Part shown: positions 34,665-39,141 of the stretch, piece after piece
How the letters are laid out: every line of letters begins with the position of its first letter
Numbering within the stretch: the first letter of the stretch is position 1
Assembly: GCF_025685415.1 (NCBI RefSeq)
Contig: NZ_JAGSYB010000001.1
Coordinates: forward strand, 2,790,001-2,854,000
DNA from: Terriglobus aquaticus
GTDB taxonomy: Bacteria; Acidobacteriota; Terriglobia; Terriglobales; Acidobacteriaceae
Length of the DNA: 64,000 nt
Reading direction: 5' to 3'
The notes under the pieces: model-generated
Told to the model about the DNA's origin: nothing
The model's database searches: none
What the model saw: the letters and a program-made list of their open reading frames with translations, nothing else
Position numbers and translations under genes: made by a program

Positions 34665-35405
34665 ATGGGCAAGCTCGATGGAAAAGTAGCCGTCATCACG
34701 GCAGGCACCAGCGGCATGGCACTCGCCACCGCCAAGCTCTTCGTTCAGGAAGGCGCCCACGTCTTCATCACCGGCCGCCGCAAAGACGTGCTCGACGACG
34801 CCGTCAAGCAGATCCAGCAGGTCGGCCCCAGCATCACCGGCATCCAGGGCGACGCCTCCAAACTCGAAGACCTCGACACACTCTTCGAAACCGTGAAGCG
34901 CGAGAAAGGCAAGATCGACATCCTCTTCGCCAGCGCCGGCCGTGGCGAGTTCGCCTCCATCGATCAGGTCACCGAACAGCACTTCGACGAGACCTTCGAC
35001 CTCAACGTCCGCGGCACCCTCTTCACCGTGCAAAAGGCGCTCAAGCTCTTCAACGACGGCGGCAGCATCATCCTCAACGGCTCCATCGCCGGCAGCAAGG
35101 GCTCCGCCGCGTTCGGCGTCTACTCCGCCAGCAAAGCCGCAGTCCGCTCCTTCGCTCGCACCTGGGTCGCCGAACTCAAGGATCGCCAGATCCGCGTCAA
35201 CGTCATCAGCCCCGGACCCATCGACACCCCCATCCTCGCCCCGCTCCCCAAGGAAGCCGTAGAGGGCTTCATCGCACAGGTCCCGCTTGGCCGAATCGGC
35301 AAACCAGAAGAGATCGCCACCACCGCCCTCTTCCTCGCCTCATCCGATTCCAGCTACATCAACGGCGTCGAACTCTTCGTCGACGGCGGCCTCGTCTCGG
35401 TCTAA
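34665..35405 (+). CDS. SDR family oxidoreductase
   Basis: The predicted protein has 246 residues, with AAAGGAG seven to ten bases before the ATG. It has TAGTSGMALATA as the cofactor loop, which departs from the usual TGxxxGIG by lacking the first and third glycine positions. It also has FASAG in place of NNAG, SIILNGSIAG with the catalytic Ser, YSASK and YINGVELFVDGG. This matches a subgroup often found beside ArsR or HxlR regulators that acts on quinones or aldehydes. It is divergent from arsR and convergent with the MauE-thioredoxin gene. Confidence 0.9.
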   Translation: MGKLDGKVAVITAGTSGMALATAKLFVQEGAHVFITGRRKDVLDDAVKQIQQVGPSITGIQGDASKLEDLDTLFETVKREKGKIDILFASAGRGEFASIDQVTEQHFDETFDLNVRGTLFTVQKALKLFNDGGSIILNGSIAGSKGSAAFGVYSASKAAVRSFARTWVAELKDRQIRVNVISPGPIDTPILAPLPKEAVEGFIAQVPLGRIGKPEEIATTALFLASSDSSYINGVELFVDGGLVSV

Positions 35406-35459: not shown

Positions 35460-36494
35460 CTAATAAGCATGTGCGGGGTACAGGGCGAGCAACTCGCGAA
35501 TCGAGTTAGCGCCCTGTGCCACGCCGCTACCGATCGTACCGTCACTCAAGACGATCACCGCGGACGGCGTGCCCCACGCGTGGTACTGATCGGCCACTTC
35601 CTGGCCCTGCTGTAGCAAGACCATAGCTGGATCCAGCACGGACGCCTTCTCGTAGTTTTCCTCGACCGTCCCTTCGCTCACGATTACCACCCGCAACCCT
35701 GCCGGATTCTCGACCATCCACGAAGCTGCCTCTGCCACCAGTGCAAGACACGGTCCGCATTGTGGGTTCATGAAGAGCAATAGGATCGCGTGCGATCCCT
35801 CCAGCAGCGACCCCAGCGATACGGCATCGCCCATCAGGTTTGGCAGCGAGAACGTGGGCGCCAGCGAGCCGATACCGGGTGCGCCACCATGACCCTGCGG
35901 TTCCGCGGCGTCCTGCGTTCCCTGCATCATCAGGCTCTCCACTCTTTCCAGCCGCAGCAGCAGCCGGCCTTGCTGCCGCAACATCAAGGCAAACAGACTC
36001 AACTGCACCACCAACACAGCCAGGATTAGGGCGACCGCTACGCTGAGCGGTGCATGCCGCCGCCCGAACAGATCCGTCCATGCAGAGAAGACTCGCGAAG
36101 AACCGGCGACGCCGAGCATGGCTGCATCCAGCATCAGCGCAACGTTGCGAACGATGGTGCGTGGCCCGATGGGCGCCGAATGCACCTGGCCGAAGCAATT
36201 GCAAGAAGGTCGCTTGCCTCGGGACAAATTGCGAACAATGGCCACGAGAAACAGACAGAGCAGGACGCAAGCAGCCGCTGCACCGGCGCGCATTGTGAAA
36301 GGCACCGCAAGCGAAGCCGCCACAAGCAACTCCGCAATGGGCAGAACGATCGCCAGAGGAGTCCCGAAGCGGTCAGGGACACCAAAGTCCTGCAGGGTCT
36401 GGCGGGTCCCCGCCCTGTCGCGCAGCTTCGCCGCTCCGGCAATCAGAAACGTCGCAACCAACACGGTCTGCAACACAAAAAACAGGTATGGCAT
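35460..36494 (-). CDS. MauE (DoxX-like) membrane domain fused to a MauD-like thioredoxin domain
   Basis: The predicted protein has 344 residues from the ATG at 36494 behind GAGGTG. Residues 1-175 hold four to five membrane helices with the MauE/DoxX pattern (TFLIAGAAKLRDR) and a cysteine pair Cys98/Cys100 in SCNCFGQ. After a short linker, residues ~205-344 form a thioredoxin/AhpC-like domain (APTFSLPNL) with the redox motif CGPC at 246-249 and the cis-Pro region WGTPSAV. In methylamine use, separate MauE and MauD proteins help form the disulfides of the Cys-rich MADH small subunit. Here the two are fused and follow a Cys-rich Tat substrate by 14 bases, so they probably oxidise that partner. 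Confidence 0.9.
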   Translation of the reverse strand: MPYLFFVLQTVLVATFLIAGAAKLRDRAGTRQTLQDFGVPDRFGTPLAIVLPIAELLVAASLAVPFTMRAGAAAACVLLCLFLVAIVRNLSRGKRPSCNCFGQVHSAPIGPRTIVRNVALMLDAAMLGVAGSSRVFSAWTDLFGRRHAPLSVAVALILAVLVVQLSLFALMLRQQGRLLLRLERVESLMMQGTQDAAEPQGHGGAPGIGSLAPTFSLPNLMGDAVSLGSLLEGSHAILLLFMNPQCGPCLALVAEAASWMVENPAGLRVVIVSEGTVEENYEKASVLDPAMVLLQQGQEVADQYHAWGTPSAVIVLSDGTIGSGVAQGANSIRELLALYPAHAY

Positions 36495-36508
36495 GGTTTC
36501 ACCTCGCA

Positions 36509-38143
36509 TCAGTGAATCGGATTTGGATTGACGTTGGTGCAAACGTAGCTACCATTCACCCGATTGCAGTAACTCTGTCCAATGCCACAACACACACCGC
36601 CACAGCATGTAGGCGAAGTTAGCGAGCAGCAGGTGCCGATCGTGTGTCCATTCGGGCCCATGGACTGGCAGGCATACTGGCTGATCCTCCCCAGGAGTGT
36701 TGGGCAGCCAAAGCAGGATCCGTTGCTGCACACTTGCCCGGGCGCGCAACACGTGTTGCCACAGACTCGCTTCGGATCGGGGCAGCACACATTGTTCACG
36801 CAGGTTCCCGCGCAACACTGGCCGTTGCAGCACGGGTTAAACGGCGGGCAGCATTTGTTGTTGCAGATGTGGCTGGGATCGGGACAATACACTCCGTTCT
36901 TGCAGTCCTGGGGCGCCGCGCAAACTCCGCCGCAACAGATCTGCCCGGCCGTGCAACACTCTTTCCCGCAGTTCACCAATCCTGTCGGGCAGCCACAGCT
37001 GCCGTCGGGCGAACAGCTTGAAACGTTCGCGCCGCAGCACACGTTGTTGCACACCACCATGTTCTGTGGGCAGCACAGATCGCCACGGAAGCAGTTGTCG
37101 TGTCGTCCGCAGCAGGTAAACACACCACCACACGGCACCGGGCAGCATCCGCCACCGGGCAACTGGCACGTTCCCCAACACGCCAGCCAAATCACGTTGT
37201 ACGCTGCTATCGCCGTCGCCCATGCCACCGGGCCGCCTATCCATACCTTCCAATCGTTGATCCCCGATTTATCCGCCGCCAGGTCGCCGCAATTGTTCCA
37301 GCAGTTATCGCAATCCGGAGCGTTGTAGGTTCCGCCAGGCACATACCAGCCATCGCCCGGATCGTTCGGTCCGCCCTGACCCGGCTTGTAGGCCATCACG
37401 CTGCGTTGGCCACCCGCTGCCACACCGGGTCCAGTAACTGCTGCCGGACGGTTGACGGTGGTGGTGAGACGGGAGGCTGTTGCCGGAAGATTGTGGCACT
37501 TGCGCAAACCCTGGCTCGCCTGGGACGCCAACGCAGTGACAATCGGCTGCAATCCCGCATCAAGGATCAGGGCCGGGGCGGGATTCCGGTCCAGAAATGC
37601 GACTCCCGTTGCCGTGCCGCGGTTGTCCATAACCGCGCTTACAGCCCTGTTATCGATAACTCCCGTAACCTGTCCTGGCCTCATCTGCAGAGTCGCGTTT
37701 GCAATACCGCGCGCACCTGCGCCGTAGGCGATGGTCGCAGTTCCGGTGTGATCCTCTGAGGTGGTCACGGTGGAATCCACCAGCGTTTGGCCACCTCGGT
37801 GTGCCACGATCCGGGTGGTCACCACACGTGCGACCGCGTCATACGTCAGGGTCTGCTCAAGATCCACGCCAGACTGGCTTACGATCAGGCCTTGTGTCAT
37901 CACATTGCCACTGCGCTGCCGCTGACATTGCCCGGTCAGCGTCATCGGCAATCTGTTTACCGGTGTTGCCAGGCGAAGGCGCTGGTTCGCCCCAGGCTGC
38001 GCGGCCAGTCTCCCCAACGCAGATTGCGAGCCCCATAGCGCCGCCGTCGACGCAGCGCCCTGCACGAACTTCCGCCGCGCAGGACTCGTCGGAGCCGAAT
38101 GTCCCGCCATGCGCAGACAAACTTTGTCGAACCAATTCATCAT
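36509..38143 (-). CDS. Tat-exported hyper-cysteine-rich protein of unknown function
   Basis: The predicted protein has 544 residues from the ATG at 38143 behind GGAAG; a GTG at 38164 would add seven. The Tat signal has RRKFVQG near residue 23. Residues ~60-235 are a beta-rich domain without many cysteines. Residues 278-535 carry about 52 cysteines, many as CC pairs, in repeats such as CCPDP..C.N.CCAPGQVCSNGSC that recall granulin or STIG1-like knots. A tryptophan-rich segment (NDWKVWIGGPVAWATAIA, then YNVIWLACWG) separates the two parts. CCGRHDNC at about 344-351 fits the phospholipase A2 histidine signature. It is the first gene of a pair with the MauE-thioredoxin fusion. I do not recognise the whole protein. 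Confidence 0.85.
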   Translation of the reverse strand: MMNWFDKVCLRMAGHSAPTSPARRKFVQGAASTAALWGSQSALGRLAAQPGANQRLRLATPVNRLPMTLTGQCQRQRSGNVMTQGLIVSQSGVDLEQTLTYDAVARVVTTRIVAHRGGQTLVDSTVTTSEDHTGTATIAYGAGARGIANATLQMRPGQVTGVIDNRAVSAVMDNRGTATGVAFLDRNPAPALILDAGLQPIVTALASQASQGLRKCHNLPATASRLTTTVNRPAAVTGPGVAAGGQRSVMAYKPGQGGPNDPGDGWYVPGGTYNAPDCDNCWNNCGDLAADKSGINDWKVWIGGPVAWATAIAAYNVIWLACWGTCQLPGGGCCPVPCGGVFTCCGRHDNCFRGDLCCPQNMVVCNNVCCGANVSSCSPDGSCGCPTGLVNCGKECCTAGQICCGGVCAAPQDCKNGVYCPDPSHICNNKCCPPFNPCCNGQCCAGTCVNNVCCPDPKRVCGNTCCAPGQVCSNGSCFGCPTLLGRISQYACQSMGPNGHTIGTCCSLTSPTCCGGVCCGIGQSYCNRVNGSYVCTNVNPNPIH

Positions 38144-38307: not shown

Positions 38308-39141
38308 ATGCGCACGGTTCTTTCCTCCACGCCCCGGTCAGAGTTGCTTCCCTTCGTGCGTGCCTATGCACAGCGCGAGCTCCGTCTCGAGCCCGACATC
38401 GAGCAGCCCGTTGTCGCTACCCTCGAACAGGTTCTGCAATTCGAATTCGCCGATCCACTTGCCATTCACTACGCGGACGGCAATCTTCAATATCCCGGAA
38501 GGATCACTCTTGTCGGCGCGCACACGTTCCCACGCGCGTCCATCCTCTTTCGAGGCAGCATCGAATCATTCGGTGTTTTCTTTCAGCCGCTCGGCTTGTG
38601 GCAACTCTTTCAGATCCCGAATCGAGCGATGAGCAATCAGGCTTATGACGGGGTTGCATGCCTCGGTCCTGGTGTCCGCAGTTTGTGGGAAGCGATGGCC
38701 GAAGACGGAACGTTTCTGGGACGAGTGCGCCTCGTTGAGGAATACCTTTACAGCCGTCTTAGCCGTTGTGAGCCGCATACGTCTGCCATGGCAGCCGCAG
38801 CCTACATATTTCGGCACAAGGGCGTTCTGCACATCGGCGAAGTTGCCGGCCGTTCCGCATTGAGTCTGCGGCAATTTGAGCGCAGGTTTGTCGAAGATAT
38901 TGGTGTTCATCCCAAACTCTTCGCCCGCATCGTTCGTTTTCAAAGTGCGCTTGATACCAAGCTGCGTTTCCCCGCTCGTCCGTGGATACAAATCGCGCAC
39001 CGATTCGGCTATCACGATCACATGCACATGGTGCACGACTTCCGCTCGCTCAGTGGCTTCTCGCCAACAGCTGTTCTGGCCAGCATCGGCGATGGCAGGC
39101 CGTCTGCCCTGCAGGCCTCCGACCATCTCCTGCTTGGATAG
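38308..39141 (+). CDS. AraC family transcriptional regulator
   Basis: The predicted protein has 277 residues. The N-terminal ~150 residues are a beta-rich sensing domain with HTFPRASILFRGSIESFGVFFQPLGLW, as in the DUF6597 group. The C-terminal HTH pair reads GEVAGRSALSLRQFERRFVEDIGVHPKLFARIVRFQSAL followed by IAHRFGYHDHMHMVHDFRSLSGFSP, the normal AraC signature. AGGACGAG precedes the ATG. It is divergent from the Cys-rich/MauE-thioredoxin pair with a gap of about 165 bases, so it is the best candidate regulator of that pair. Confidence 0.92.
   Translation: MRTVLSSTPRSELLPFVRAYAQRELRLEPDIEQPVVATLEQVLQFEFADPLAIHYADGNLQYPGRITLVGAHTFPRASILFRGSIESFGVFFQPLGLWQLFQIPNRAMSNQAYDGVACLGPGVRSLWEAMAEDGTFLGRVRLVEEYLYSRLSRCEPHTSAMAAAAYIFRHKGVLHIGEVAGRSALSLRQFERRFVEDIGVHPKLFARIVRFQSALDTKLRFPARPWIQIAHRFGYHDHMHMVHDFRSLSGFSPTAVLASIGDGRPSALQASDHLLLG

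Follow-up and report, generated by a model that had tools for sequence, protein, structure and literature searches.

A gene for a protein with many cysteines lies immediately upstream of a gene whose product fuses a MauE domain with a thioredoxin domain in the window (the whole 64,000-nucleotide stretch of the Terriglobus aquaticus genome analyzed here), raising the question of whether the second protein serves the disulfides of the first. MauE and MauD have roles in the methylamine utilization cluster, where their partner is Cys-rich, and to our knowledge the role of MauE has rested mainly on methylamine metabolism. These roles are also cited in a 2020 study (PMC7794033), the accessible text of which describes three Streptomyces candidate families with MauE, one of them also with MauD, read as RiPPs; each MauE cluster has a predicted precursor with at least 8 Cys, no other mau orthologues are reported in the three named genomes, and disulfide formation by MauE is described as speculation. 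Because of that study, the idea that MauE acts on Cys-rich proteins in settings other than methylamine use is, at least in outline, already in print. The literature searched, in which subscription papers were partly covered, gave no description of the fusion, of its varied domain partners or of the element shared by its clients.

We consider it probable that the two genes encode a client and its own thiol-disulfide factor, the fusion belonging to a branch, paired with clients, within a broader MauE-thioredoxin family in which housekeeping members also occur. The Cys-rich client would undergo export, with Tat as the probable route, and its numerous Cys residues would form disulfides. The fusion would be a membrane protein with Cys98/Cys100 of the MauE domain and CGPC of the thioredoxin domain on the same membrane side, and would act like MauD and MauE joined in one polypeptide, electrons passing from the client thiols to CGPC, then to the CxC pair and finally to a membrane electron acceptor. 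We infer the membrane side, the acceptor and the specificity for the neighbor. The direction would be oxidation rather than reduction or isomerization, disulfide formation being favored because of the analogy with MauE and MauD.

The two-gene locus

The features of the locus are as follows.
36509..38143 (stop codon included), minus strand: Cys-rich client, 544 aa (read from the sequence)
36495..36508, minus strand: 14-base intergenic gap, a GAGGTG ribosome-binding-type sequence preceding the ATG of the fusion (read from the sequence)
35460..36494, ATG at 36494, minus strand: MauE-thioredoxin fusion, 344 aa (sequence, Pfam and predicted structure)
38308..39141, plus strand, divergent from the pair: AraC-type regulator with HTH_18 and DUF6597 (Pfam)

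The client is upstream and the fusion 14 bases downstream (38143..36509, then 36494..35460), confirming the spacing given in the preliminary description, and the count of about 52 Cys made there also holds, in that 52 of the 55 Cys in the 544 residues fall within residues 278-535. An SDR gene on the opposite strand, ending at 35405, flanks the fusion side. The AraC gene, 164 bases from the pair and within a local G+C dip, is possibly linked to the pair; it had no match in the four congeners searched, a search run without a positive control.

The host genome comprises 4.16 Mb in two contigs. The fusion had no match in 18 congeners and was found in three of 101 relatives' genomes (E ≤ 1e-10), while the client was likewise absent from the 18 congeners and matched a single one of the 101 (E ≤ 0.001), the window's own genome. 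The pair was likely acquired recently by the host; the plasmid collection contained no match to the fusion.

Domains and predicted structure of the fusion

Pfam and the sequence bear out a MauE domain with Cys98/Cys100 and a thioredoxin domain with CGPC in one protein. The parts of the fusion are listed below.
Residues 1-127: MauE domain
Residues 145-190: long helix
Residues 204-344: TlpA/ResA-like thioredoxin domain

The MauE match (PF07291, E = 2.7e-28 over residues 1-127) scores 99.2 bits against a gathering score of 27, and an AhpC-TSA match (E = 7.2e-8) spans residues 208-321. There are six Cys, at positions 76, 80, 98, 100, 246 and 249, with CGPC at 246-249. All 23 aligned fusions share C98, C100, FGQ, H105, C246, C249 and P310 without exception. 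The Cys-x-Cys after the third span, which we read as a MauE-defining trait, is present as C98 and C100.

In the structural model (mean pLDDT 83, pTM 0.51), helices at residues 2-25, 41-63, 65-91, 111-130 and 145-190, which we read as predicted membrane spans, accompany the thioredoxin domain. Two spans separate the CxC loop from the thioredoxin domain in the model, which would place both on one membrane side. The thioredoxin domain matched the TlpA/ResA-like fold, with DsbE, ResA and peroxiredoxins among the best structural matches, and the matches listed covered residues 204-344 only. No PDB sequence matched the fusion at E ≤ 0.01.

The likeness to the methylamine system lies in a MauE domain above its curated cut-off, a weakly MauD-like thioredoxin domain and a Cys-rich, probably exported partner. 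Here, however, the two functions share one fused polypeptide, and the MauD model TIGR02661 scores 32.3 bits, below its curated cut-off of 188.6. The claim that the genome has no mau structural genes is consistent with the methylamine dehydrogenase light chain (PF02975) having no match in the host genome, but it is not established, the control likewise having matched in no genome. VKOR-thioredoxin proteins and DsbA/DsbB resemble the fusion in that a membrane thiol protein is joined to, or works with, a thioredoxin fold in making disulfides. The fusion differs from them in its membrane domain, which matches the MauE and DoxX models and not those of VKOR or DsbB in Pfam, and the VKOR homologues of the host are separate proteins.

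The Cys-rich client and its family

Reading of the alignment places the borders of the following features in the client.
N-terminal: WFDKVCLRMA element
About residues 21-43: twin-arginine-type segment
About residues 60-215: beta-rich region
About residues 300-326: hydrophobic, Cys-containing segment
Residues 326-535: CC-repeat region

The client matched no Pfam and no NCBIfam family at E ≤ 1, so the earlier remark that it fits no known family stands for the two libraries searched. Against PDB sequences it gave one weak match, to the flagellar hook protein FlgE (E = 0.0095), and its single-sequence model (residues 47-544, mean pLDDT 45) had no PDB structure match at E ≤ 0.001. Four relatives with 27-35% identity to it lie beside fusions in the class, namely L122 (620 aa, 68 Cys), L124 (510 aa, 58 Cys), L125 (512 aa, 56 Cys) and L126 (574 aa, 74 Cys). 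The N-terminal WFD, the beta-rich region, the hydrophobic Cys-containing segment and the CC repeats are common to this family. A phospholipase-like motif in the window client, CCGRHDNC, is put down to chance: in the test for group XII phospholipase A2, the signature CCxxHD reads CCGRHD, is not conserved in the family, and the Pfam profile is unmatched.

Export by Tat, as first described, is only plausible from the residues present. The twin arginine is there (ARRKFVQ, residues 22-28), but the stretch that follows is weakly hydrophobic, the best N-terminal 17-mer reaching 0.53 on the Kyte-Doolittle scale versus 1.17-2.00 in 10 of the 15 other clients scored. Tat export would also not be universal in the client family, because L125 and L126 are without a Tat-like hydrophobic stretch.

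Searches in the converse direction, from client to fusion, are weak tests. The client-family profile matched seven of 399 genomes: the five profile seeds, a remnant in G251 that adjoins a fusion remnant, and G660, a counterexample in which a related Cys-rich protein stands alone, no MauE-type ORF being called in the roughly 7 kb to either side. The client of G349, used as a query, matched three of 396 genomes, these being itself, the window and a doubtful G275. The G275 match runs antisense to a Cys-free ORF of 399 aa and was not counted, although the contig also carries a MauE-domain gene about 2.6 kb from it.

Recurrence of the pairing

We searched 399 genomes of the class with the fusion profile A3 (E ≤ 1e-25), and 27 of them matched. 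Both domains were present in 14 genomes, the window's included, and a Cys-rich protein is directly adjacent in eight of these (the window, G603, G730, G491, G691, G668, G508 and G573). In G587, one called ORF separates the fusion from a twin-arginine protein whose tail is Cys-rich. No Cys-rich partner was found in the remaining five (G098, G516, G574, G702 and G511), where the G702 and G511 contigs measure only 3.4 and 4.2 kb and the G511 fusion is interrupted by a stop. Twelve further genomes had thioredoxin-only matches, with a partner in G091 (two loci, one adjacent and one fused), G506 (fused), G500 and G561 (both adjacent); no Cys-rich partner was found in the other eight, several of which are on short contigs or at contig ends. 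Each of two ORFs from a single genus (L088:8505-9350 and L142:2522-3376) encodes a thioredoxin domain and a Cys-rich tail in one polypeptide, with an RR-hydrophobic stretch between them. Gene order varies among loci, the client being upstream, downstream or divergent from the fusion.

The pairing of fusion and Cys-rich gene exceeds chance. In 27 class loci, the window excluded, a fixed threshold for Cys-rich proteins (no fewer than 12 Cys and 5.5%) flagged 9 of 47 adjacent genes versus 1 of 170 others (Fisher P = 4.6e-6), and in 43 named-genome loci it flagged 4 of 81 adjacent genes versus 1 of 464 others (P = 0.002). Both P values are optimistic because the threshold was chosen once the same loci had already been inspected, the gene calls came from a simple script and the loci are partly related. 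Besides the nine flagged automatically, the class loci include two fused tails and L124, which the gene caller missed and which was read by eye. The flagged named-genome loci are L041, L043, L065 and L074 (4/43); the client of L062 is divergent and falls below the flag threshold, and that of L080 is one called gene away. L060 lacked an anchor gene in the adjacency test, while L015/G349 and L041, which agree in coordinates and length, are one contig and were counted once, as were L052 and G098 (24,215 bases). The check proposed at the outset, whether a Cys-rich protein is always adjacent, thus has a divided answer: the pair recurs, in 8 of 14 both-domain genomes, but adjacency is not constant, given the five without a partner and the small flagged share of named-genome loci.

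Paired fusions also cluster on a tree. In a quick tree of 51 fusions, the paired trait needs five changes versus a shuffled mean of 12.4, with none of 500 shuffles as low. Relatedness contributes to this result; of the 48 inner branches, 22 are open, and the starred ones force only two changes. The fusions of L122, L124, L125 and the window, all neighbors of the client family, group together (SH-aLRT 93, not starred), and the fifth, L126, lies outside the group. The tree omits L051, L076, L077, L079, L081 and L083, in which the MauE stretch is absent or short; L062 and L080 were labeled paired by reading rather than by the flag, and L131 (G587) was labeled unpaired, its Cys-tailed neighbor having been noticed later. 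The recurrent pairing supplies numerous client-enzyme pairs open to experiment; it could decide whether MauE is a membrane protein that forms disulfides, and might provide a means of making disulfide-rich proteins in bacteria.

Thioredoxin and Cys-rich genes at L145, L088, L142 and L144 have genes for O-antigen ligase (Wzy_C), TPR or NusG-like proteins close by, which suggests polysaccharide loci. At L156:4894-8993, a subtilase gene is near two Cys-rich proteins with similar N termini of the LPxFS...SLYxT type and no evident signal, and no MauE-type ORF was called nearby.

The wider MauE-thioredoxin family

The MauE domain is common, occurring in 285 of 396 genomes of the phylum. A scan of named genomes gave 44 fusion loci, 19 of which lie between der and tgt (L040, L045, L047, L053-L058, L063, L064, L068, L070-L073, L078, L081 and L082); four more are beside der or tgt with the other side cut by a contig end, bringing the loci at der and/or tgt to 23 of 44. 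On L078, where NCBIfam names der, tgt, yajC and secD, the last two follow the fusion. The der/tgt site is a conserved housekeeping position near Sec genes. No adjacent Cys-rich gene was flagged at any der/tgt locus, nor at the Thermomicrobiales loci, and one real Cys-rich neighbor (L015) was seen in the 1.5-kb flanks of another 29 MauE-domain genes of the phylum, a set not limited to fusions. Because the der/tgt loci have no flagged neighbor, the family of fusions, taken as a whole, is not reserved for Cys-rich proteins, and one branch of it is paired.

The notion of a private oxidase therefore survives in part. Recurrent pairing and the clustering of the trait on the tree speak for it, but exclusivity does not extend to the whole family, given the 23 der/tgt loci and the unaccompanied Cys-rich protein of G660, and oxidation would be its probable rather than observed activity. 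Two VKOR homologues separate from the fusion are present in the host, and at least one in 9 of 11 genomes searched; because of the two in the host, another disulfide route probably exists there.

Alternative explanations

The rival explanations overlap with each other and with the dedicated client-factor pair that we favor. The fusion might serve exported proteins at large as a thiol-disulfide factor, with the Cys-rich neighbor as one heavy user and no specificity, and the 23 fusions at der/tgt and the Thermomicrobiales loci, all without a flagged Cys-rich neighbor, argue for it. We nevertheless regard it as unlikely, though deserving of some weight, since the host and most genomes searched already have VKOR, yet the fusion is absent from 18 congeners, and since the paired trait is clustered on the tree. 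It is improbable that the fusion is reductive or an isomerase that maintains or rearranges the thiols of the client, possibly to allow metal loading. Its thioredoxin domain does resemble ResA and DsbE, which act reductively, but the two flanking genes examined, SDR and AraC, are neither metal nor haem genes by Pfam. The precedent for MauE is also disulfide formation, even if called speculation in the accessible text of PMC7794033; neither point measures redox direction.

We find it more doubtful still that the thioredoxin domain and CxC face the cytoplasm and oxidize the client there, export of the folded protein coming afterwards. The loops on the CxC/thioredoxin side have the higher mean K+R (2.48, 2.35 and 4.35 versus 0, 0.35 and 1.0 on the other side), so the positive-inside rule gives no support to a periplasmic placement of that side. 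In the fused ORFs, a hydrophobic stretch separates the thioredoxin domain from the Cys-rich tail and would therefore put the two on opposite sides, which also agrees with a cytoplasmic thioredoxin, as do clients L125 and L126 with no Tat-like stretch. Two of those three K+R-rich loops nevertheless contain more acidic than basic residues, and TlpA, ResA and MauD relatives are extracytoplasmic. Least probable, and very much so, is a client that is a RiPP-type precursor with the fusion as one of its modifying enzymes, as the accessible text of PMC7794033 proposes for Streptomyces. The three MauE candidate families described there, one also with MauD, do have MauE beside Cys-rich ORFs outside methylamine use, with predicted precursors of at least 8 Cys, and PqqD-like domains head three of our clients (L065, L074 and L080). 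Those precursors, however, came from a short-ORF screen, whereas the window has a multi-repeat client of 544 aa with a MauE-thioredoxin fusion, flanked by an SDR gene and an AraC regulator.

Diversity of clients and a shared N-terminal element

The clients near fusions carry varied domains. PLA2G12 Pfam domains occur in L123:2034-3062 and L127:5626-6519 (E = 3.2e-12 and 1.6e-12), both from genomes of the class, Stig1 in L043 (2.7e-23), TSP1 with PqqD in L080 (2.3e-20 for TSP1), and PqqD in L065 and, just below the cut-off, in L074; the Stig1 and PqqD-headed clients come from outside the phylum. In L065:9072-9770, L074:2356-2943 and L080:9151-9828, each near a MauE-thioredoxin gene, the PqqD-like domain is followed by an RR-hydrophobic stretch and then by a Cys-rich or TSP1 tail. 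L122, L126 and L062 had no Pfam match, and L143 had a sub-threshold S4 match only. A PLA2G12 search matched one of 191 genomes, itself a seed.

A shared element, FDxLxRxLA, precedes RR in many clients. A regular expression found it in 11 of 16 clients scanned; by loose reading by eye it is in all 16 and absent from L065, L074, L080 and L131 (16/20). Among RR-hydrophobic N termini in the loci, FDxLxRxLA occurs in four of four flagged Cys-rich proteins versus 2 of 46 others, one of the two being the L062 client, an enrichment that is descriptive, as only four clients passed the filter and the expression was written after viewing clients. It is possible, though we put it forward tentatively, that a modular secretion-folding system is at work, in which an FDxLxRxLA-then-RR tag directs structurally unrelated disulfide-rich domains to export and to a dedicated MauE-thioredoxin membrane machine that oxidizes them. 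If so, client domains (CC-repeat, phospholipase A2, STIG1 and others) would be swappable while tag and machine stay. Some 5 kb from a MauE-thioredoxin gene of the der/tgt type, L056:879-1523 encodes a 12-Cys protein that starts like the PqqD-headed clients.
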